Shown: piece after piece, positions 15,367 through 63,965 of the stretch
Layout of the letters: each line of letters starts with the position of its first letter
Position numbering within the stretch: the stretch's first letter is position 1
NCBI RefSeq assembly: GCF_026712245.1
Contig: NZ_JAPPUY010000001.1
Location: 496,001 to 560,000, forward strand
Length of the DNA stretch: 64,000 nt
Source: Roseateles hydrophilus
Lineage (GTDB): Bacteria; Pseudomonadota; Gammaproteobacteria; Burkholderiales; Burkholderiaceae_C
Direction of reading: 5' to 3'
Notes under the pieces: generated by a model
Seen by the model: only the letters and a program-made list of their open reading frames with translations
Databases searched by the model: none
Told to the model about the DNA's origin: nothing
Program-made: the position numbers and the translations under genes

Positions 15367-15390
15367 GTCTTGCGTGGACGCTGGCCGGCT

Positions 15391-15948
15391 TCAGGCGGCA
15401 GCGCGCTTGGCGGTGCGGGCCGCCGTCTGCGTGGCTTTGACGGCTTGCGTGGTGGCGGCTTGGAAGTTGGCTTCTGCGACTTCGACGGCCTGCTTGGTGG
15501 CCTTGTGCACCGACTCGAAGGCGTTGTTCGCAGCGGCGACGGCAGACTTCACCAGCGCGACGGCGTTCTCGGTGCCGGCCGGGGCGTTCTTGGCGGCCGT
15601 GTCCACCATCGTCGAGAAGGTCTTCTGCGCATCGGCGAACTGGCTCTCAGCCACCTTGGCGACTTCGGCGCCGGTGCTGGAGGCGATGTCGTAGATGTGG
15701 CGGCTGTAGGAGGCAGCCTTCTCGGCGGTGGGTTGCAGCAGCGCGGCCTGCAGCGACAGCAGTTCCTGCGCGTCCTTCACCGACATGGCAGCGTTGGTGG
15801 TGTCGGCGGCCTCGCTCAGCGCGGTCTTGGCGACCTGCAGGTTCAGCTCGACGAGCTTCTCGACGCCTTCGAATGCCTTGTTCGTCAGGCCGAAGAGGGT
15901 TTCGACGTTGGCCTTGTGAGCGGCGAGGATCTGTTCAGCGGTCAGCAT
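15391..15948 (-). CDS. phaP: Phasin family protein (polyhydroxyalkanoate granule-associated)
   Basis: A 185-aa phasin, the amphipathic coat protein of PHA storage granules. [20 protein letters not shown] is the family N-terminus. The rest is Ala/Lys/Glu-rich helix with low-complexity A-T-K repeats, ending TAKRAAA, typical of Burkholderiales PhaP. ATG 15948 is preceded by GGAGT; the frame extends to an ATG at 16068, but that would start within the promoter region. It is monocistronic with its own terminator, as expected for a very highly expressed gene. It implies that the organism makes PHA, although no PHA synthase gene is in the window. Confidence 0.9.
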
Positions 15949-16115
15949 GGTGGAACTCCGATTTCGAGTGGTTGAACCGATTGCTGTGCTTGATTGCTGC
16001 ACTGCAACATGACTCGAATCATAGGGGTGTGCCGCCGGATTGCAAGTCTTTTTTGTGCGCTGCAACAAATTAGGGGTGTCTCCCGCTTTGATGCGGCGCT
16101 GCTACCGTGGCGGCC
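15949..16115. promoter_or_regulatory. Divergent phasin / deacetylase promoter region with repeated motifs
   Basis: A 167-bp AT-rich intergenic region. Two motifs occur twice in the same order: CTGCAACA at 16002-16009 and 16060-16067, and TAGGGGTGT at 16022-16030 and 16071-16079. Overlapping TGC/GCA-rich dyads (TTGCTGCACTGCAA, 15995-16008) resemble the kind of site reported for the PHA regulator PhaR, but this assignment is inference. Confidence 0.45.
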
Positions 16116-17045
16116 ATGCTGGCTTTCCATTCCGATGCCCACAGCCTGGCGCTGCCGCCGGGCCACCGCTTCCCGCAGTCCAAGTACCGCCTGCTGCGTG
16201 AGCACTTCGAGCGCGAGCCCGGCCTCTTGCGCATGCAGCCGGCGCCAGCGGCGGATGAGGGCGAACTGCTGCTGGCCCACACGCCGGACTACGTCGACGC
16301 CGTGCTGGGCGGCACGCTGAGCGCGGCACAGCAGCGTGAGATTGGCTTCCCGTGGAGCCCGTCAATGGCGGAGCGCTCGCGCCGTTCGGTCGGCGCCAGC
16401 ATCGCTGCCGCGCGTGCCGCGCTGGCTGAGGGGGTGGCGGCCAACATGGCCGGCGGCACGCACCATGCCTATGCGGACAAGGGCTCGGGCTATTGCGTGT
16501 TCAACGATGTCGCCGTGGCGGCCCGGTTGATGCAGGTGGAGTGGGCGCGGGCGCATCGTCATCTGCTGGGTGTGCTGGTGATCGATCTGGACGTTCACCA
16601 GGGCAATGGCACGGCGGCCATCTTTCGCGATGACGACTCGGTGTTCACCTTCTCCATGCACGGCGAGAAGAACTTTCCGTTCCGCAAGGAGCCGAGTGAC
16701 CTGGATGTGGGGCTGCCGGACGGCTGCGGCGATGCGGACTACCTGGCTGCGCTGGACGAGGCGCTGGCCACCGTCTGGCGCCGCTGCCAGCCCGGCCTGG
16801 CTTTCTACCTGGCCGGCGCCGACCCGCACGAGGGCGACCGCCTGGGGCGGCTCAAGCTCACCCACGCCGGCCTGGCCGAGCGCGACCGGCGCGTGTTGAC
16901 GGCGCTGCGCGAGCGCGGCATCCCGGTCGCGCTGAGCATGGCCGGCGGTTACGGGCATGACCTGGCGACCACCGTGGCCGCGCAGGTGACGACGCTGAAC
17001 CTCGCGGCCGAGGCCTGGGCGGCTAGCGCACGCGGAACTGGCTGA
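16116..17045 (+). CDS. Histone deacetylase-like (acetoin utilization/HDAC superfamily) protein
   Basis: A 309-aa zinc-dependent deacetylase of the arginase/deacetylase fold. Active-site features are present: GGTHHA (catalytic His pair), [19 protein letters not shown] (Asp and His zinc ligands), [12 protein letters not shown] (second Asp ligand) and MAGGYG near the end. The length matches bacterial class IV-like enzymes. The substrate could be an acetylated protein, polyamine or other amide; the sequence does not decide. A GTG at 16107 is an alternative start. The gene is divergent from the phasin gene, and its last 23 nt overlap the convergent chemoreceptor gene. Confidence 0.88.
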
Positions 17046-18558
17046 CCACCTGCGCCAGCCGCTGCGCCTGTTCGCGCAGCGACTCGGCTGCTGCGGCGCT
17101 TTCCTCGACGAGGGCGGCGTTCTGCTGCGTCATGTCGTCCACCTGGTTGACCGCCTGCGTCACATCGGCGATGCCCTGGCTCTGGGCGGACGCGCTGGCG
17201 CTGATCTCACCCATGATGTCGGTCACGCGCTGGACGGCGCCGACGATCTCTCCCATCGTCGCGCCGGCTTCCTGCACGTGGCGGGCGCCGGACTCGACGC
17301 GTTCCACGCTGGCGCTGATCAGCGTCTTGATTTCCTTGGCGGCCGTGGCGCTGCGGCCCGCAAGGCTGCGCACCTCGCCCGCCACCACGGCGAAGCCCCG
17401 GCCCTGCTCGCCGGCCCGCGCGGCCTCCACAGCAGCGTTCAGCGCGAGGATGTTGGTCTGGAACGCGATCTCGTCGATGACGCCGATGATGTCGGCGATG
17501 CGCTTGCTGGAGGCAGCGATGTCGTTCATCGTGTCCACCACCTGCTGCACGACGCTGCCACCGCGGTGCGCCACGTCGGCCGCCGAAGTCGCGAGCTGAT
17601 TGGCCGTCTGTGCATGCGCGGAGCTTAGCTGCACGGTGCCGGTCAGTTGGGCCATGGATGAGCTTGTCACCTCCAGGCTGGACGCTGTCTGCTCGGTGCG
17701 TACATTGAGCTCCTGGTTGCCGGAGGCGATCTCGGCGGACGCGGTGCGGATGTAGTCCGCCACCTGCATCACATCGCCCACGGTGCTGCCCAGCTGTTCG
17801 CACATCTGGTTCAGCGCCTGCATCAGGCCGGCCAATTCATCCTTGCCCAGCGGCGTGGCACGCTGCGTGAGGTCGCCCGCTGCCACGGCCTGGGCCAGCG
17901 ACAGGGAGGCGTTCACGTCGGCGGCGATCTTGCGCTGGTTGATCAGCAGCAGCCCCATGCCGGCGCCAGCGGCCAGCAGTGACACCAGTGCAAACAGCCA
18001 GGCGCCGCGGCGGGCGTGGTCCTGCTGGCTGCTGGCCGTGGCCTGTTGTTCTTCGCTCAGGCTGTGCACCACCTTGCCGATCAGTGTCGCCACGTCCTTG
18101 TAGCGTGCCTGGGCCTCCTGCATGGCGGCCACGCCGGTGTTGGGATCCACCGAGGCGAGGTCGACGGCGCCATCGGCCTTGCCCAGATAGGCCTGCAGTA
18201 GCGCCGGGCATTGCTTGATGAGCGCATCCGCATCGGGAGGCACGCCGTCCATGCTGGCGAGCGTGTTCAGCGTGCGCGTGACACCCTCCACCTGAGCCTT
18301 CAACTCGGCGCGCGCCGCCTTGACCTGGCCGTCGTCCATGGAGCCGATCAGCGCGAGGGTGCGGAACACGCCGCCGTGCATTTCGCCTACCTGCGTCTGC
18401 ACGGCCACCATGGTCATGAAGAGCTCATTGCGTTGCTGGCTGGCGGCATTGCTGCTCACGACCTCGCGCAGGGAATACCAGTTATTGCCCAGCCCAATGG
18501 CCAGCACGATGGCCAGCGCCGCCATCGGGGGCAGCAGCATCTTGGCGGCGAGTTTCAT
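17023..18558 (-). CDS. Methyl-accepting chemotaxis protein
   Basis: A 511-aa transmembrane chemoreceptor. The first helix (about 7-28) and the second (about 190-212, [19 protein letters not shown]) frame a helical periplasmic domain of the four-helix-bundle type. HAMP follows ([20 protein letters not shown]), then the long cytoplasmic coiled coil with the conserved hairpin tip ([20 protein letters not shown]). There is no C-terminal NWETF-like pentapeptide. It lies 31 nt downstream of a gene for a small periplasmic Cache protein on the same strand, so the two probably form an operon. Its 3' end overlaps the deacetylase gene tail. The ligand is unknown. Confidence 0.92.
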
Positions 18559-52729: not shown

Positions 52730-53824
52730 ATGACCGCCATCTCCGAAGCATCGCTGCAACCCCTGCTGCAGGCCGTGATCGATCCCGGCAGCGGCCGCAC
52801 GCTGGGCGAATCGCGCGCCGTGCGATCGGTGCAGGTCAGCGGCGCGGATGTCGCCGTGGACGTCGAACTGGGCTACCCGGCGGCCAGCCAGCATGCTGCG
52901 CTGCGCGCCGCCGTCATCGCGGCCGCCCGCGCACTGCCGGGCGTGGGCAATGTCAGCGTCGCCATCTCGACGCGGGTCGTCGCCCATGCGGTGCAGCGCG
53001 GCGTGCAGCTGCTGCCGGGCGTGAAGAACATCATCGCGGTGGCGTCCGGCAAGGGCGGCGTCGGCAAGAGCACCACGGCCGCCAACCTGGCGCTGGCGCT
53101 GGCCGCCGAGGGCGCCAAGGTCGGCGTGCTGGATGCCGACATCTACGGCCCCAGCCAGCCCACCATGCTAGGCGCCAGCGGCCGCCCCGAGACGCTGGAT
53201 GGCCAGACCATGGAGCCGCACATCGCCCACGGCCTGCAGGTCAACTCCATCGGCTTTCTTGTGGACGACGACCAGGCCATGATCTGGCGCGGCCCCATGG
53301 CCACGCAGGCGCTGGAGCAGCTGTTGCGCCAGACCCGCTGGCAGGAGCTGGACTACCTCGTCATCGACATGCCGCCGGGCACCGGCGACATCCAGCTGAC
53401 GCTGTCGCAGCGCGTGCCGGTGACCGGCGCCGTCATCGTCACCACGCCCCAGGACATTGCCCTCATCGACGCCAAGAAGGGCCTGAAGATGTTCGAGAAG
53501 GTGGGCGTGCCCATCCTGGGCATCGTCGAGAACATGGCGGTGCACATCTGCTCGAACTGCGGCCATGCCGAACACATCTTCGGCGCCGAGGGCGGGCGGC
53601 AGATGGCGGCGCAGTACGGCACGGAGCTGCTGGGCTCGCTGCCGCTGGCCATGAGCATCCGCGTGCAGGCGGATGCCGGCGCGCCCACGGTGGTGGCCGA
53701 TCCGGCCGGCGAGGTGGCGGCGCTGTACAAGGCGCTGGCCCGCAAGATTGCCGTGAAGATCGCAGCGCAAGGCAAGGACTACTCGTCCAAGTTCCCGACC
53801 ATCGCCATCTCCAAGGGCACCTGA
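52730..53824 (+). CDS. apbC: Iron-sulfur cluster carrier protein ApbC (Mrp/NBP35 ATPase)
   Basis: A 364-aa P-loop ATPase that carries Fe-S clusters to target proteins. An N-terminal MIP18/DUF59-like domain (about 5-85) precedes the deviant Walker A SGKGGVGKST (106-115). DADIYGPSQPTML and YLVIDMPPGTGD (Walker B) follow, then the cluster-binding CSNC motif near residue 290. ATG 52730 was chosen from family length; the open frame far upstream runs antisense to the TonB gene. It lies 183 bp upstream of the formate dehydrogenase operon on the same strand. Since that operon encodes Fe-S-rich subunits, a helper role is attractive but unproven. Confidence 0.92.
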   Translation: MTAISEASLQPLLQAVIDPGSGRTLGESRAVRSVQVSGADVAVDVELGYPAASQHAALRAAVIAAARALPGVGNVSVAISTRVVAHAVQRGVQLLPGVKNIIAVASGKGGVGKSTTAANLALALAAEGAKVGVLDADIYGPSQPTMLGASGRPETLDGQTMEPHIAHGLQVNSIGFLVDDDQAMIWRGPMATQALEQLLRQTRWQELDYLVIDMPPGTGDIQLTLSQRVPVTGAVIVTTPQDIALIDAKKGLKMFEKVGVPILGIVENMAVHICSNCGHAEHIFGAEGGRQMAAQYGTELLGSLPLAMSIRVQADAGAPTVVADPAGEVAALYKALARKIAVKIAAQGKDYSSKFPTIAISKGT

Positions 53825-54007
53825 TTCGCGCACCCGGAAGCTGACGCCTCCCTGACTTCCGGCTTTGCCTGACGCTATCGCTGAGTCGGCCAAACACCTA
53901 TTGGACAAGTCCCGTCGGTTGTGAAGAAATCCGGACGCTGCCGCGTGCCGGCGTCAATCTTCAATCTGTTGGACGGTGGGGTCCACGAGGCCCCTGGAGA
54001 CGATTCC

Positions 54008-57000
54008 ATGGACATGAACCGGAGGCATTTCTTCCGGGTGAGTGGCGCGGGGCTGGCAGCATCCAGTCTGGTCGCGCTGGGGTTCTCGCCGACGGCCGCA
54101 TTGGCCGAGGCGCGCAACTTCAAACTCTCCCGGGCCACAGAGACCCGCAACACCTGCCCCTACTGCTCGGTGGGCTGCGGCGTTATCATGTACTCGCTGG
54201 GCGACAAGGCGAAAAACGTCACCTCGTCCATCATCCACATCGAAGGTGACCCGGACCACCCGGTCAACCGCGGCACGCTGTGCCCCAAGGGCGCCGGCCT
54301 GCTGGACTTCGTGCACAGCCCCAACCGGCTGAAGTTCCCCGAGATCCGCGAGCCTGGCAGCAAGGAATGGAAGCGCGTCAGCTGGGACGAGGCCATGGGC
54401 CGCCTCGTCAAGCTGATGAAGGCCGACCGCGACGCCAACTTCCAGGCCACCAACGCTGACGGCAAGACCGTCAACCGCTGGCTGACCACCGGCATGCTCT
54501 GCGCGAGCGCATCGTCCAACGAGGCGGGCTACATCACCCACAAGGCGATGCGCTCGTTGGGGATGCTGGTCTTCGACAACCAGGCGCGCGTTTGACACGC
54601 CCCGACGGTGGCCAGTCTGGCCCCGACGTTTGGGCGCGGTGCGATGACCAACCATTGGGTGGACATCAAGAACGCCGACCTCGTGCTGATCATGGGCGGC
54701 AATGCCGCCGAGGCCCACCCCTGCGGGTTCAAGTGGGTCATTGAGGCCAAGCACCACAACAAGGCCAAGCTGATCGTTGTCGATCCGCGCTTCACGCGCT
54801 CGGCCGCGATGAGCGACTACTACGCGCCCATCCGGGCGGGGGCTGACATCGCGTTCCTGGCGGGCGTGATCAACTACCTGCTGGCCGGCGACAAGATCCA
54901 GCACGAGTACGTCAAGCACTACACCAACGCCAGCTTCATCGTCGGCGAGGACTACAAGTTCGACGATGGCCTGTTCAGCGGCTACGACGAGGCCAAGCGC
55001 CGCTACGACAACAAGAGCTGGGGCTACGAGCTCGACGAGAAGGGCTTCGCCAAGGTCGACCCGACGCTGCAGCATCCGCGCTGCGTGCTCAACGTGATGA
55101 AGGCGCATTACGCGCGCTACACGCCCGAGATGGTCAGCAAGGTCACCGGCACGCCGCAGGACAAGTTCCTGAAGGTCTGCCAGATGATCTCGGAGACCGC
55201 CAAGCCCGATCGCGCCATGACCATCATGTACGCGCTGGGCTGGACGCAGCACAGCCAGGGCTCGCAGATGATCCGCACCGCGGCCATCATGCAGCTGCTG
55301 CTGGGAAACATCGGCGTGGCCGGCGGCGGCATGAATGCGCTGCGCGGGCACTCCAACATCCAGGGCCTCACCGACCTGGGCCTGCTGTCGACCTCGCTGA
55401 CGGGCTACATGAGCCTGCCGCGCGAAAGCGAGCAGGATTTGGAGACCTACTACAAGCCGCGCGCCGTCAAGCCGCTGCGCCCGGGGCAGATGAGCTTCTG
55501 GCAGAACTACCCCAAGTTCTTCGTCAGCCAGCAAAAGGCCTGGTGGGGCAAGGCGGCCACGGCCGAGAACGAGTGGGCCTTCCACTACCTGCCGAAGTGG
55601 GACAAGGTCTACGACGTGCTGCAGGCCTTCGAGCTGATGAACCAGGGCAAGCTCAACGGCTACATCTGCCAGGGCTTCAACCCGGTCGGCTCCTTCCCCA
55701 ACAAGAAGAAGATCGTCGGTGGCCTGTCCAAGCTCAAGTACCTGGTCATCATCGATCCGCTCAACACCGAGACCGCCGAGTTCTGGAAGAACCACGGCGA
55801 GCACCACGACGTGAAGAGCGAGGAGATCCAGACCACGGTGTTCCGCTTCCCCAGCACCTGCTTTGCCGAGGAGGACGGCTCGCTGACCAACTCCGGCCGC
55901 TGGCTGCAGTGGCACTGGAAGGGCGCCGAGCCCCCGGGCGAGGCCAAGGGCGACCCGGAGATCATTGCCCAGTTGTTCACGCGCCTGAGGGCGGCCTACG
56001 CGAAGGAGGGCGGCGCCTTCCCCGACCCCATCCTCAATCTCGCCTGGCCCTATCTGCAGCCCACCAACCCCTCGGCCGAGGAACTGGCCAAGGAGTACAA
56101 CGGCAAGGCGCTGGCCGACGTGCTGGACCCCAAGGACCCGACCAAGGTGCTGGTCAAGGCCGGCGACCAGGTCAGCGGCTTCGGCCAGCTGCGCGACGAC
56201 GGGTCCACGTCCTGCGGCTGCTGGATCTATGCCGGTAGCTGGACGCAGGCCGGCAACCAGATGGCGCGCCGCGACAACAGCGACCCCTACGGCATCGGCC
56301 AGACGCTGAACTGGGCCTGGGCCTGGCCAGCGAACCGCCGCGTGCTCTACAACGCGGCGTCCTGCTCGCCCGAGGGCAAGCCGTGGAACGCCAAGCGCCG
56401 TCTGGTGGCCTGGAACGGCGAGAAGTGGGGCGGCTCCGACGTGCCCGACATCCGGCCCGACGCCAACCCGACGGACGCCGAGGCTGTGCGGCCCTTCATC
56501 ATGACGGCCGAGGGCGTGGCGCGTCTATTCGCGCCCACGGGCCTGGTGGACGGCCCATTGCCGGAGCACTACGAGCCCTTCGAGACACCGCTGGCCGCCA
56601 ACCCCATGCACCCCAACAACGCCAAGGCCAAGAGCAATCCGGCCGCGCGCGTGTTCAAGGGCGACATGGAGGCCTTCGGTACGCCCAAGGACTTCCCATA
56701 CGTGGCGACGTCCTACCGGCTGACCGAGCACTTCCACTACTGGACCAAGAACGTGCGCTCGTCCGCCGTGACGCAGCCGCAGCAATTCGTCGAGATCGGT
56801 GAGGAATTGGCCAAGGAGAAGGGCGTGGCCAATGGCGACTGGGTCAAGGTGAGCAGCAACCGCGGCTTCATCAAGGCCGTGGCCGTGGTGAGCAAGCGCA
56901 TCGCGTCGCTGGACGTGGACGGCAAACGGGTGCACACCGTGGGCCTGCCCAATCACTGGGGCTTCGTCGGCGTCGCCAAGCCCGGGTATCTCGTCAACAC

Positions 57001-57079
57001 GCTGACCCCCTTCGTGGGCGATGCGAACACGCAGACGCCCGAGTTCAAGAGCTTCACCGTGAACCTTGAAAAGGCTTGA
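54008..57079 (+). CDS. fdhA: Formate dehydrogenase catalytic subunit, selenocysteine-containing (FdnG/FdhA type)
   Basis: A 1023-aa molybdopterin (bis-MGD) subunit that oxidises formate. An in-frame TGA at 54593-54595 encodes selenocysteine at residue 196, in the context NQARV-U-HAPTVA. Reading through it restores one continuous, fully conserved protein, and Sec196 is also the position known from E. coli FdnG. The twin-arginine signal [11 protein letters not shown] at the N-terminus predicts folded export to the periplasm. The 4Fe-4S ligands are Cys50, Cys53, Cys57 and Cys92 ([19 protein letters not shown]). A SECIS hairpin follows the TGA. Gene finders that stop at TGA will split it into two CDS, 54008-54595 and about 54608-57079. 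fdhB starts 2 nt after its stop. Confidence 0.96.
54593..54636 (+). promoter_or_regulatory. SECIS element with the UGA selenocysteine codon
   Basis: Bacterial selenocysteine insertion element inside the fdhA coding region. TGA is at 54593-54595. The lower stem is CGCCC (54598-54602) with GGGCG (54632-54636). The apical hairpin is GG-U-GGCC-AGUCU-GGCC-CC (54607-54624), in which U54609 is a bulge and the loop contains GU. A bulged U and GU-containing loop are the SelB-contact features known from the E. coli fdnG/fdhF elements. Confidence 0.9.
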
Positions 57080-57081
57080 CC

Positions 57082-57963
57082 ATGTCTTCACTCCAATCTC
57101 TCGACATCGCCAAGCGCTCGGCCACGACCACCAACCCGCCGCAGGCGCGCAAGACCATCGAGGTCGCCAAGCTCATCGACGTCTCCTCCTGCATCGGCTG
57201 CAAGGCCTGCCAGGTGGCCTGCATGCAGTGGAACGACCTGCGTGACGACGTGGGCGAGGCGCACGGCACCTACGACAACCCGCGCGACCTGACGCCGCAG
57301 AGCTGGACGGTCATGCGCTACTCCGAGGTGGAGGTCGAAAAAGACCGGCTCGAGTGGCTGATCCGCAAGGACGGCTGCATGCACTGCGAGGATCCGGGCT
57401 GCCTCAAGAGCTGCCCGGCGCCCGGTGCCATCGTGAAGTACACGAATGGCATCGTGGACTTCATCTCCGAGCACTGCGTGGGCTGCGGCAACTGCGTCAC
57501 TGGCTGCCCCTTCGACGTGCCGCGCCTGTCCAAGGTCGACAGCAAGGCCTACAAGTGCTCGCTGTGCTCCGACCGGGTCGGCGTCGGGCTGGAGCCGGCG
57601 TGCGCCAAGGCCTGCCCGACCGGCGCCATCCGCTTCGGCACCAAGGAGGACATGCTGGACTACGGTGCCGAGCGCGTGACCGACCTCAAGGACCGCGGCT
57701 ATGCCAACGCGGGCGTCTATGACCCGCAGGGCGTTGGCGGCACCCACGTCGTCTATGTGCTGCAGCACGCCGACAAGCCCGAGCTCTACCACGGCCTGCC
57801 CGCCGATCCCAAGATCAGCCCGCTGGTGTCGCTGTGGAAGGGGGCGGCCAAGCCGCTGGCGGTGGCGGCGATGGTGGGGGCGGTCGTGGCCGGCTTCTTC
57901 CACTACATGAAGGTCGGTCCGGTGGAGTCCAAGGACGACGCCGACAACAAGGCGGACGCCTGA
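57082..57963 (+). CDS. fdhB: Formate dehydrogenase iron-sulfur subunit (FdnH/FdhB type)
   Basis: A 293-aa ferredoxin-like electron-transfer subunit. Four cluster-binding groups are visible: [11 protein letters not shown] (Cys37-Cys47), [24 protein letters not shown] and [20 protein letters not shown], so four 4Fe-4S clusters as in FdnH. A C-terminal membrane helix (about 257-276, [19 protein letters not shown]) anchors it on the periplasmic side next to the cytochrome. The start is the ATG at 57082, 2 nt after the fdhA stop; the TTG at 57076 is in frame but overlaps. It has no signal peptide and should be exported together with FdhA by the Tat system, as known for FdnGH. Confidence 0.95.
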
Positions 57964-57974
57964 AGGAGCACGAC

Positions 57975-58598
57975 ATGGCAATTCGAACCCTGCGTCGCTA
58001 CGAAGACCGCGACCGCATGAACCACTGGCTCATCGCGCTGCTGTTCGTGCTGGCCGGGCTGTCCGGCCTGGCCTTCTTCCACCCGAGTCTGTACTTCTTC
58101 AGCGCGCTGTTCGGCGGCGGCGTCTGGACACGCATCCTGCATCCGTTCTTCGGTGTCGCCATGGTGCTGGCCTTCGCGGTGATGTTCTTCCGCCTGTGGC
58201 GCGACAACGTGTTCACGCCGTCGGATCGGGACTGGGTGGCGCACAGCGGCGACATGCTGCGCGGCAACAAGGCGGCCATGCCGCCGGTGGGCAAGTACAA
58301 CGCCGGCCAGAAGGGTGTGTTCTGGCTGATGAGCCTGTGCCTCGTGGTGCTGCTGGTGACCGGTGTGATGTTCTGGCAGCCCTGGTTCGCCAGCAGCTTC
58401 CCCATCCTGCTGCGCCGCATCGCCGTCGTGCTGCATGCGGCCAGCGCGGTCGTGCTGATCCTGGGCGTCATCATGCATGTGTACGCCGCGATCTGGGTCA
58501 AGGGCACGGTGCGCGCGATGACGCGTGGCACGGTGACCGAGGGCTGGGCGCGTCAGAATCACCCGCTGTGGCACCGTGAGATGACAGGCAAGCAGTGA
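57975..58598 (+). CDS. fdhC: Formate dehydrogenase cytochrome b556 subunit (FdnI/FdhC type)
   Basis: A 207-aa diheme cytochrome b that passes formate electrons to quinone in the inner membrane. Four hydrophobic helices are predicted. Heme-ligand histidines appear in RMNHWLIALL (His17), ILHPFFGVAM, VLHAASAVVL and IMHVYAAIW, matching the FdnI pattern. The ATG at 57975 has a GAAGGAG ribosome site. The stop overlaps the fdhE start by 4 nt (GTGA). Together with FdhA and FdhB this makes a respiratory, periplasm-facing FDH-N-type complex rather than a hydrogen lyase enzyme. Confidence 0.95.
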   Translation: MAIRTLRRYEDRDRMNHWLIALLFVLAGLSGLAFFHPSLYFFSALFGGGVWTRILHPFFGVAMVLAFAVMFFRLWRDNVFTPSDRDWVAHSGDMLRGNKAAMPPVGKYNAGQKGVFWLMSLCLVVLLVTGVMFWQPWFASSFPILLRRIAVVLHAASAVVLILGVIMHVYAAIWVKGTVRAMTRGTVTEGWARQNHPLWHREMTGKQ

Positions 58599-59599
58599 CC
58601 CCGACGACCAGCACCTCCCAGAAACTCCTCAGCCCCGAAGAGATCGCCGTCCGTGCGGGCGAGCAGCTGACCTTTGTGCACCTGCCCGATGCCGGCGTGT
58701 TCGCCGCGCGGGCACTGCGCTTGCGCGAGCTGGCCGCCGGCCATGCGATGCGCGACTTCCTGCTATTCGTCGCCGAACTGGCCGACGCCCAGCACCGGGC
58801 GCTCAAGGCCGGCGTCAGCGTGCCGGTGCCCTCGGCCGAGCAGGTGGGCGCCGCCGCGCGCGACGGCGTGCCGCTGCTGCCAGCCGAGGCCTGGGTTCGC
58901 GAGCCGGTCTGGCGCGACAGCCTGCGTGCACTGCTGCGCGATCTCGCCGCGCATCTGCCGGAAGGCCCGGCGCGTGCCGCCGCAGCCCACCTGGCTGACG
59001 CGACGGATGAGCACCTGGACACGCAAGCCGGCCGCCTGCTGACCGGCGTGATGCTGGGGCTGGACCTGGCCGCCGCGCCGCTGATCGCCGCCGGCCTACA
59101 GCTCCATTGGGTGCGCCTGGTGCAGCAGACCGCCGTCGCCCACGGCGGCGGTGCGGTCGCGCCCTTCGGCCGCATCGACGACCCGACCGTCTGCCCCTGT
59201 TGCGGATCGCGCCCCGTGGCGTCACTGGAGCGCCTGGGCGCCGAGGGCGCGCGTTACCTGGCCTGCGGTCTGTGTGCCACGCAGTGGCATTACGTGCGCA
59301 TCAAGTGCACGCACTGCCAGAGCACCAAGGGCATCTCGCTGCAGAACCTCGTCGCAGCCGACGCCAGCGCGCCCGAGGCGCAGCCGGCCGTGCAGGCCGA
59401 GTGCTGCAGCGAGTGCGGTCACTACCTCAAGCTGATGCACCCGGCGCGTGACAACGGCCTCGAACCCGTGGCTGATGACCTGGCCACGCTGACGCTCGAT
59501 CTGCTCGTCAGCGAGGACGGCCAGCAGCGCCACGGCCTGAACCTGCTGCTGCTCTTCGGCGAGCCCGACGAGGCCCCACCGCCCGGCGGAGGACATTGA
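58595..59599 (+). CDS. fdhE: Formate dehydrogenase accessory protein FdhE
   Basis: A 334-aa cytoplasmic maturation factor needed for active Tat-exported formate dehydrogenases. The N-terminal helical half is followed by a rubredoxin-like half with paired Cys: CPCCGSRP, CGLCATQWHYVRIKCTHC and CCSECGHYLK, the known FdhE iron-binding pattern. The GTG start at 58595 overlaps the fdhC stop by 4 nt. selA follows with its GTG 2 nt after the fdhE stop. FdhD, the sulfurtransferase also required for FDH activity, is not encoded in the window. Confidence 0.93.
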   Translation: MTPTTSTSQKLLSPEEIAVRAGEQLTFVHLPDAGVFAARALRLRELAAGHAMRDFLLFVAELADAQHRALKAGVSVPVPSAEQVGAAARDGVPLLPAEAWVREPVWRDSLRALLRDLAAHLPEGPARAAAAHLADATDEHLDTQAGRLLTGVMLGLDLAAAPLIAAGLQLHWVRLVQQTAVAHGGGAVAPFGRIDDPTVCPCCGSRPVASLERLGAEGARYLACGLCATQWHYVRIKCTHCQSTKGISLQNLVAADASAPEAQPAVQAECCSECGHYLKLMHPARDNGLEPVADDLATLTLDLLVSEDGQQRHGLNLLLLFGEPDEAPPPGGGH

Positions 59600-59601
59600 T
59601 C

Positions 59602-61031
59602 GTGGCGCCCGACGAATCCGTGGTTCACGGTTCCAAGGCCCCCGACAAAGCGGCCCCCAAGGACCTCCCGGCCCTCGACAAGCTGCTGCGCGAATGTGCG
59701 GCGCTGGTGGCCGAGCACGGCCACACGCTGGTCGCCCGCGAGGCGCGGGGGCTGCTCGACGCCCTGCGCACGCGCGCGGTGGCGGGCGAGTTGCCCCGCG
59801 CCGAGCTGGCCGGGCTGCCGCAGGCGCTGGCCGCGCGTGTTGCCGCGCGCATGAGGCCCAAGATGCGTGCGGTGCTCAACCTCAGCGGCACCGTCATCCA
59901 CACCAACCTCGGCCGCGCGCTGCTGGCCGACGCCGCGCTGCAGCAGGTGCTGGCACTGACCGGCGCGCCCAACAACCTCGAGTTCGACCTGGACACCGGT
60001 GGCCGCGGTGACCGTGACGACCTCATCGAGAACTTGCTGTGCGAACTCACCGGCGCCGAAGCGGCCACGGTGGTGAACAACAACGCGGCTGCGGTGCTGC
60101 TGGGCATCGCGGCGTTGGCGCGGGGCAAGGAGGCCATCGTGTCGCGCGGCGAGCTGGTCGAGATCGGCGGCGCCTTCCGCATGCCCGACGTGATGTCCGC
60201 GGCCGGCGCCACGCTGGTGGAGGTGGGCACCACCAACCGCACCCACCCGCGCGACTACGAGGGCGCCATCAACCCGCGCACCGGCCTCATCGTCAAGGTG
60301 CACACCAGCAACTACGCCGTGCAGGGCTTCACCGCCTCGGTGGATGAGGCGACGCTGGCCCCGATCGCGCGAGCGGGCGGTGTGCCGCTGATGACCGATT
60401 TGGGCAGCGGTGCGCTCGTGGACCTCACCCAATGGGGCCTGCCGGCCGAGCCGCTGCCCCAGGCCATGCTGGCCGCGGGCTGCGACGTGGTCACCTTCAG
60501 CGGCGACAAGCTGCTGGGCGGCCCGCAGGCCGGGCTCATCGTTGGCAGCAAGGCCGCGGTGGGGCGCATTCGCAAGTTCCCGATGAAGCGGGCGCTGCGC
60601 CTGTCCAAGCTGCCGTTTGCTGCACTGGAGGCCACGTTGCGCCTGTACCTGCGGCCCGAGCGGCTGGTGCAGGACCTGCCCACGCTGCGCCTGCTGACCA
60701 GACCGCAGGCCCAGATCGCCGCGCTGGCGCAGGCCCTGCTGCCGGTGCTGGAAGCCGCTGTGGCGCCACGCTTTGCGGTGTCGGTCGTCGCGCTGCAGAG
60801 CCAGATCGGCTCCGGCTCGCTGCCGGTGGAGCGGCTGCCGTCGGCCGGCCTGGCTCTGGCCGCGCTCGACGGCCGTGGCCGCACGCTCGAAGCGCTCGTG
60901 ACGGCCCTGCGCGGGCTGCCGCGCCCGGTGATCGGCCGTGTCCACGACGACCGCCTGCTGCTGGACCTGCGCTGCCTGGAAGACCCGGCACTGCTGACCG
61001 GCCAGCTGGGCGTGCTGAAGGAGGCGTTGGC

Positions 61032-61035
<4 letters not shown>
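59602..61035 (+). CDS. selA: L-seryl-tRNA(Sec) selenium transferase
   Basis: A 477-aa PLP enzyme that converts Ser-tRNA(Sec) to Sec-tRNA(Sec) with selenophosphate. The cofactor lysine is Lys303 in [15 protein letters not shown]. Other conserved segments are [19 protein letters not shown], the [10 protein letters not shown] loop and [17 protein letters not shown]. The GTG at 59602, 2 nt after the fdhE stop and behind GGAGG, is the preferred start; a TTG at 59596 would give a 4-nt overlap. Its stop overlaps the selB GTG by 4 nt. The selenophosphate synthetase gene selD is not in the window. Confidence 0.95.
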
Positions 61036-62906
<1,871 letters not shown>

Positions 62907-62913
62907 GGACTTC

Positions 62914-63009
62914 GGAGGGGCAACGACACCGGTGTGTCGGCCGGGCTTCAAACCCGGTGGGTGGCGCCATGCGCTGCTGGGTGGGTTCGACCCCCACGCC
63001 CCTCCGCCA
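62914..63009 (+). tRNA. selC: tRNA-Sec (anticodon UCA)
   Basis: A 96-nt selenocysteine tRNA. The acceptor arm has 8 bp, GGAGGGGC (62914-62921) with GCCCCTCC (62998-63005), longer than in ordinary tRNAs. The anticodon arm is CCGGG-CTTCAAA-CCCGG with the anticodon TCA reading UGA. A long variable arm follows (about 62960-62980), then the T arm GTGGG-TTCGACC-CCCAC. Discriminator G63006 and CCA (63007-63009) are encoded. The overall layout matches E. coli selC. It lies directly behind selB. Confidence 0.97.
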
Positions 63010-63147: not shown

Positions 63148-63585
63148 ATGCTGATCGCCGGTACAGAGCTGCCGGACGACCTCTGGTACTGGGTCGAAGA
63201 CCAGACCTGGGTGCGGCTGCTGCCTGGGGGCGGGGTGCGGGTGGGCATCACGGCGCTGGGCTTGAAGGCGTCGGGCGAGATCTACATGTGCCGGCCGAAG
63301 TCGGTGGGCAGCGAGGTGGTGCAGGGGCGCTCCGTCGGTGTGGTGGAGCTGTCCAAGTCGGTCGTGTCGGTGCGCTCGCCGCTGTCGGGCACGGTGACGC
63401 GGGTCAATGAGGCGCTGGAGACGCAGCCTGAGTTGGTGCACCGCTCGCCCTACGGAGAGGGCTGGCTGGTGGAGCTGGCGCCGTCCCAGCTGCCGCAGGA
63501 GCAGGCCGGGCTGGCCATCGGCGCGGCCGCCGTGCGCGAAGCCATGCAGGCCTGGGCGCGGCTCAACCGGCTGGAGGCGGACTGA
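63148..63585 (+). CDS. GcvH-like lipoyl carrier protein
   Basis: A 145-aa protein with the fold of glycine cleavage H protein. It has the conserved WVRLLPGGGVRVGITALGL, and Lys70 in VVELSKSVVSVRSPLSGTV aligns with the lipoylated lysine of GcvH (VVESVKA...PVSG). LETQPELVHRSPYGEGWLVE follows the H-protein pattern. No gcvT or gcvP is near, and the SKS context differs from classic GcvH, so it is more like the lipoate-binding proteins found with sulfur (DsrE/Hdr-like) systems. The DsrE-like gene overlaps its stop by 1 nt. Function in sulfur or one-carbon transfer is inference. Confidence 0.8.
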   Translation: MLIAGTELPDDLWYWVEDQTWVRLLPGGGVRVGITALGLKASGEIYMCRPKSVGSEVVQGRSVGVVELSKSVVSVRSPLSGTVTRVNEALETQPELVHRSPYGEGWLVELAPSQLPQEQAGLAIGAAAVREAMQAWARLNRLEAD

Positions 63586-63965
63586 TGTCGCGCACCGGCC
63601 TGGCCATCCTGCTGTGGGCCGCCGACCCCGACGAGCCCGCGCGCCTGGCCACGCCCTTCGCCCATGCGGCCGCGGCAGCGGCGATGGACCTGCAGGTGGA
63701 GGTGTATTTCTCGGCGCGCTCGGTGCTGCTGCTGCGCCCCGGTGTGGCAGAGTCGCTGCGCGCATCGGCGCGTTTCGACAAGACGGTGGCGGCCTGGATG
63801 CAGGACGCGCTGTCGCACGGCGCGCGCTTTCTGGCCTGCTCCGATGCGCTGGCCGCGCAAGGCCTGACCCCGGCCGACATCCTGCCCGCCGCGCGCCAGC
63901 ATGGCGGTGCGGTCCAATTCACTGCCCGTGCCGCTGACCCGGCCTGGGCCACCCTGGTGTTCTGA
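63585..63965 (+). CDS. DsrE-like sulfur-carrier family protein
   Basis: A 126-aa protein resembling the DsrE/DsrF fold: an initial beta-strand (GLAILLWAADPDEPARLATP), a helix, VEVYFSARSVLLL, and a single conserved-position Cys85 in ARFLACSDALAAQG, followed by LTPADILPAARQHGG. In DsrE/TusD relatives this Cys carries a persulfide. The start codon overlaps the stop of the GcvH-like gene (TGATG), so the two are co-translated. Pairing of a lipoyl carrier with a DsrE protein points to sulfur transfer. Confidence in the fold is moderate, in the function low. Confidence 0.72.
   Translation: MSRTGLAILLWAADPDEPARLATPFAHAAAAAAMDLQVEVYFSARSVLLLRPGVAESLRASARFDKTVAAWMQDALSHGARFLACSDALAAQGLTPADILPAARQHGGAVQFTARAADPAWATLVF

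Follow-up and report, generated by a model that had tools for sequence, protein, structure and literature searches.

A TGA codon at position 196 of a formate dehydrogenase-N alpha subunit gene of Roseateles hydrophilus, very probably read as selenocysteine

The question raised by this locus is whether an in-frame TGA breaks the gene of a formate dehydrogenase alpha subunit or is read as selenocysteine (Sec). In the window (the whole 64,000-nucleotide stretch of DNA that was analyzed), the frame at 54008-57079 on the forward (+) strand is interrupted once, by a TGA at 54593-54595, which is codon 196 counted from the ATG at 54008. Read through this TGA, the frame encodes 1023 residues and terminates at 57077-57079 in a codon that is also TGA. 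The first-pass annotation had described two open frames as parts of the same frame, interrupted by one TGA, which agrees with the ORF listing and with an end-to-end match to the E. coli chain 1KQF_A. The mechanically called ORF upstream of the TGA spans 53921-54595 and opens at GTG; the ATG at 54008 is preferred as the start because it fits the homologue start MDVSRRQFFK in 1KQF. The second frame, listed as beginning at about 54608, merely starts at the first GTG past the TGA (codon 201).

The read-through product was identified as the alpha subunit of formate dehydrogenase-N (fdnG/fdoG, also fdhA; 54008..57079, +), with Sec as residue 196, on the basis of a family profile, a structural homologue and sequence motifs. 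The TIGR01553 profile matched with 1484.7 bits, relative to a curated cut-off of 814.2, over model positions 2-1009 of 1009, and 1KQF_A aligned with residues 1-1023 of the query at 1526.6 bits, with the non-standard residue X of 1KQF_A opposite residue 196. The protein has an RR signal-like start, C50PYCSVGC and a CPKG at 92. We take C50PYCSVGC to be the [4Fe-4S] motif and RR to be the signal, and residue 196 is presumably the metal-ligand position. E. coli FdnG (1KQF/1KQG) and its aerobic twin FdoG resemble the window in full-length homology, in Sec at residue 196 and in having the beta and gamma subunit genes next to the alpha gene.

The state of codon 196 in related genes was evaluated by a scan of species genomes, which gave at least 595 related stretches. 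In the best 80 of these, codon 196 was TGA in all 80, and when 29 further loci were added it was TGA in 108 of 109 and TGT in one (L131). Five pairs of genes among the 109 loci were identical, leaving 104 distinct genes, 103 of them with TGA. The Roseateles and Pelomonas orthologues L003, L022, L005 and L007, 85-92% identical in the best segment, have TGA at codon 196 as the window does. The closest named relatives among the matches listed were Pelomonas sp. Root1237 (L003) and Roseateles cellulosilyticus (L022), each with 92% identity in the best segment, a value also found for an unclassified Burkholderiales MAG (L004); L003 and L022 carry the same gene sequences as L110 (genome G013) and L109 (genome G012), respectively, and both of these genomes are in the genus of the window. 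Chance can be discounted for this codon, given that the X of 1KQF_A falls on the TGA in an end-to-end match and that the TGA is kept in 108 of the 109 related loci. Alignment of the read-through protein to homologues with Sec or Cys at this site had been proposed in the first-pass annotation as a check, and its outcome is that X of 1KQF lies under the TGA and that the related loci have TGA with the one TGT exception.

A SECIS element of family RF01989 (SECIS_3) was found at 54590..54648 (+), with 84.6 bits relative to a gathering score of 63 and a match over the full model (1-59); it begins three bases 5′ of the TGA. Its 59 bases align without gaps to the corresponding stretch of an E. coli gene, 48 of them identical; that E. 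coli gene is labelled fdnG, but it adjoins fdoH and is probably FdoG. A SECIS_3 search of the whole genome returned seven matches (E up to 10), one of which, that in fdnG, was above the family score. The six weaker matches (at most 19.2 bits, E of at least 0.296) were taken as chance.

The hairpin was also evaluated by folding and by pairing across relatives. Folding alone supports the element weakly: the stability was slightly greater than that of shuffles for two short stretches (z of -1.64 and -1.65), and with wider flanks the hairpin was no more stable than shuffles (z of 0.22). Pairs were counted in 49 sequences, 44 of them distinct, comprising the window, 47 of the 80 loci and one E. coli gene. 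In the 44 distinct sequences, the Rfam hairpin had 91.1% of cells paired, compared to 27.7-49.6% for slid versions, with 100% in the upper helix and 84.1% in the lower helix. The pair at columns 8-48 fails in 27 of the 44 sequences, and two other pairs fail in 14 and 12. Changes on both sides of a pair were found in 29 cells, a number reached by 0 of 500 shuffles, and were spread over 4 pairs, a number reached by 28 of 500 shuffles. Codon conservation in the SECIS stretch was above the gene average (ratio of 0.648 for 14 codons relative to 0.853 for 483 codons), ranking 42 of 818 sliding windows, with duplicates included among the rows.

Downstream of fdnG are the genes for the other subunits and for the decoding of Sec, all on the same strand. 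These are fdhB, the iron-sulfur beta subunit of formate dehydrogenase (57082..57963, +; TIGR01582, 445.6 bits, cut-off 334.7); fdhC, the cytochrome b556 gamma subunit (57975..58598, +; TIGR01583, 174.8 bits, cut-off 115.85); fdhE, a formate dehydrogenase accessory protein (58595..59599, +; TIGR01562, 223.8 bits, cut-off 187.65); selA, L-seryl-tRNA(Sec) selenium transferase (59596..61035, +; TIGR00474, 557.7 bits, cut-off 267.9), which is the sole match in the genome; selB, the Sec-specific elongation factor (61032..62906, +; TIGR00475, 434.9 bits, cut-off 242.25), with the winged-helix domains SelB-wing_2, SelB-wing_3 and SelB_WH_2nd_bact; and selC, the tRNA-Sec with anticodon TCA (62914..63005, +; RF01852, 74.3 bits; 62914-63009 by ARAGORN). 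The profile scan of fdhB was started from a TTG at 57076, and the ATG at 57082 is the likelier start. The order is fdnG-fdhB-fdhC-fdhE-selA-selB-selC, with neighbors overlapping by 4 bases or sitting 2-11 apart, and we infer that the genes are cotranscribed. The presence of fdhE, selA, selB and selC downstream on the strand of fdnG differs from the E. coli arrangement, in which selAB and selC, as we understand it, lie apart from fdnG.

Two further genes were found elsewhere in the genome: selD (427.6 bits, cut-off 125) and fdhD (177.7 bits, cut-off 140.9). With selA, selB, selC and selD all present, the genome has a complete set for decoding Sec. The gene adjoining selD encodes a rhodanese-domain protein of 392 residues and is presumably mnmH/ybbB. 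One TGA was flagged inside fdhD, which was considered as a second selenoprotein gene and rejected: this TGA is the terminal stop, which the alignment overran by two codons, and the fdhD frame is open, with a CGLCG motif. A second match in the genome to the tRNA-Sec model over the gathering score (48.5 bits) was taken, by inference, to be a serine tRNA.

The possibility that the TGA really ends translation, or results from a sequencing error, so that fdnG is broken, has in its favor that genetic code table 11 takes TGA as a stop and that mechanical gene calling splits the frame. Against it stand a TGA that recurs at this codon in 108 of the 109 related loci (the best 80 of at least 595 and 29 more), the SECIS match at exactly that place and the adjoining sel genes, and we consider it extremely improbable. 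A second possibility is that each piece is a protein of its own and that translation re-initiates at the GTG that is present at 54608, downstream of the TGA. However, this GTG encodes a valine in a 16-residue stretch common to the E. coli gene, and a split would cut the molybdopterin domain PF00384, which occupies residues 107-592 of FdnG, making re-initiation still harder to credit. Finally, a change of code by which TGA is generally sense in this genome, without a SECIS element, would leave the frame open once TGA is counted as a residue, but both fdnG (57077-57079) and fdhB terminate in TGA, and therefore a general code change is unlikely; the sole tRNA found in the 64-kb window, with anticodon TCA, is the tRNA-Sec, and the chance of such a change is practically nil.

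The selenocysteine reading is favored because of the family match, the X of 1KQF at residue 196, the SECIS_3 element, the adjoining selA, selB and selC, the presence of selD and fdhD, and the conserved TGA. The first-pass annotation had placed Sec at residue 196, the position that it has in E. coli FdnG, and had regarded the TGA as no break; the alignment with 1KQF, the SECIS element and the conservation of the TGA uphold this. To judge from the sequence, the gene is almost certainly a standard bacterial selenocysteine gene, in which the sel machinery would insert Sec at residue 196 of FdnG. SelA would convert Ser-tRNA(Sec), made from selC, to Sec-tRNA(Sec) with selenophosphate from SelD, and SelB, bound to the SECIS hairpin just 3′ of the UGA, would bring Sec-tRNA(Sec) to the ribosome, so that Sec would be put in at residue 196. 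Sec196 should serve as a ligand of a bis-MGD center with molybdenum (or tungsten) as the probable metal. The alpha subunit would be exported by the Tat route with FdhB and the membrane cytochrome FdhC. In E. coli, Fdh-N and Fdh-O oxidize formate outside the cytoplasm and pass the electrons to the quinone pool, and the enzyme encoded in the window may likewise oxidize formate outside the cytoplasm and deliver electrons to the quinone pool.

The selenocysteine reading is correct, and the locus is an ordinary one, of a kind already described. According to excerpts of Zhang et al. 2006 (PMC1794560), fdhA lies beside selA-selB-selC in Alpha- and Betaproteobacteria and in Pseudomonadales, fdhA is the only selenoprotein gene of Sec-decoding Betaproteobacteria, and the Betaproteobacteria were among the groups with the Sec trait in at least 10 genomes or in half of those sequenced. 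The window has the same arrangement as the cluster in these excerpts, and its genome has a single above-threshold SECIS_3 match; selD is located apart and adjoins a ybbB/mnmH-like gene, as the excerpts state for Pseudomonadales. Among the features compared with the cluster in those excerpts (PMC1794560), no difference was found. Of bacterial selenoproteins, according to an excerpt of a further paper (PMC5029168), the formate dehydrogenase alpha subunit and SelD are the most widespread, the former occurring in 822 organisms. A literature search for Roseateles with formate dehydrogenase found no paper.

The value of these results for annotation is that fdnG is intact, in a genome that has one clear SECIS_3-type selenoprotein gene and the complete decoding set. 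It had been expected in the first-pass annotation that automatic annotation would split this gene or mark it as a pseudogene. Mechanical calling with table 11 does split the frame, but one E. coli record is an intact CDS with no pseudogene flag. Among 12 plasmid matches from Burkholderiales, a single fdnG name lies under the match in 2 (H11 and H14), and the other 10 are without a listed feature in a gene table that is incomplete.

The single TGT homologue, L131, is from genome G086. A SECIS_3 match was sought in L131 and none was found. A wider 12-kb stretch of G086 (L135) contained fdhB, fdhC and part of fdhE, and a search of these 12 kb for selA, selB and the tRNA found none of them. The best tRNA-Sec match in G086 had 48.7 bits, just over the gathering score of 47, and was taken to be a serine tRNA. 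The selenocysteine reading has a clean natural control in this TGT homologue, which lacks a SECIS_3 match and comes from a genome with no strong tRNA-Sec.

How common such genes are was evaluated in 100 relatives, including the genome of the window: 20 of the same genus, 40 of other genera of the family and 40 from elsewhere in the order. Every one of the 100 genomes gave some match to the tRNA-Sec model, and 54 were over the cut-off of 47, a number that takes in matches scoring about 50 bits or less. These low-scoring matches were read as serine tRNAs because they occur across the 100 relatives and in all 14 controls, Bacillus subtilis included. The tRNA-Sec was counted at 67 bits or more, and no match lay between 67.4 and 50.4 bits. 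By this measure, a strong tRNA-Sec was present in 38 of the 100 genomes: 15 of 20 in the genus (the genome of the window included), 10 of 40 in other genera of the family and 13 of 40 in the rest of the order.

FdnG-type matches at E of 1e-100 or better were obtained in 33 of the 100 genomes, and codon 196 was covered in 31 of these, 30 having one TGA and one, G086 with TGT, having no stop. The remaining two, G078 and G064 (46% and 42% identity, matched from residues 348 and 351), have codon 196 outside the match and were excluded from the Sec/Cys count. The position of the TGA at codon 196 was verified for the window and for 28 of the remaining 29 genomes, all but G089. The 30 genomes with TGA all belong to the 38 that have a strong tRNA-Sec; G086 lies outside them. 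Selenoproteins had been called uncommon in Burkholderiales of this type, and given a tRNA-Sec in 15 of 20 genomes of the genus and 38 of 100 overall, and TGA in 30 of the 31 FdnG-type matches that span codon 196, this claim of rarity does not hold. Eight genomes (G030, G055, G061, G064, G069, G071, G085 and G095) have a strong tRNA-Sec and no FdnG match at E of 1e-100 that covers codon 196, and these may hold other selenoproteins.

Within the genus, fdnG and a strong tRNA-Sec were both present in 15 of 20 genomes and both absent from 5, one of which (G011) is 83% complete. We suggest only tentatively, and with more doubt than conviction, that the seven genes fdnG-fdhB-fdhC-fdhE-selA-selB-selC behave as a self-contained Sec cassette, acquired or lost as one unit within the genus. 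Co-transfer of such clusters was proposed earlier, in the excerpts of PMC1794560, and if the suggestion is true, gain and loss of the cassette in this genus would be a local example.

The arrangement downstream of fdnG was compared in the 66 of the 80 loci (the best 80 of at least 595) that extend at least 7,900 bases downstream of the gene. It was found that fdhB, fdhC and fdhE were present in all 66, selB in 65, selA in 62 and a tRNA-Sec, by ARAGORN, in 55, with selA, selB and selC together in 54. For L042, L056 and L076, the tRNA-Sec was not found by Rfam either, within the stretch covered. In L007 and L008, selA and selB are separated by additional DNA, so that selB comes to lie at the locus end. 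L007 (Pelomonas sp. CA6) differs from the window in this respect, with about 3 kb between the two genes (15368-18463), and the ORFs of its insert, read by eye, are flavocytochrome sulfide-dehydrogenase-like, thioredoxin-like and transglutaminase-like; in L008 (Variovorax), selA and selB are about as far apart.

Other genes border the locus on both sides. Upstream of fdnG, on the same strand, is a gene for an apbC/mrp iron-sulfur carrier (52793-53821, +; NF008669, 435.1 bits). Of the 66 loci that extend far downstream, 4 also have a match to this gene ahead of fdnG. Just past selC, at 63148-63965 (+), are genes for a glycine-cleavage-H-like protein (PF01597, 92.5 bits) and a DsrE-like protein (PF02635, 32 bits), perhaps lipoyl- or sulfur-related. 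Many of the 109 loci end before this point, and both genes were also matched in L003, L014, L021, L025, L052 and L059.
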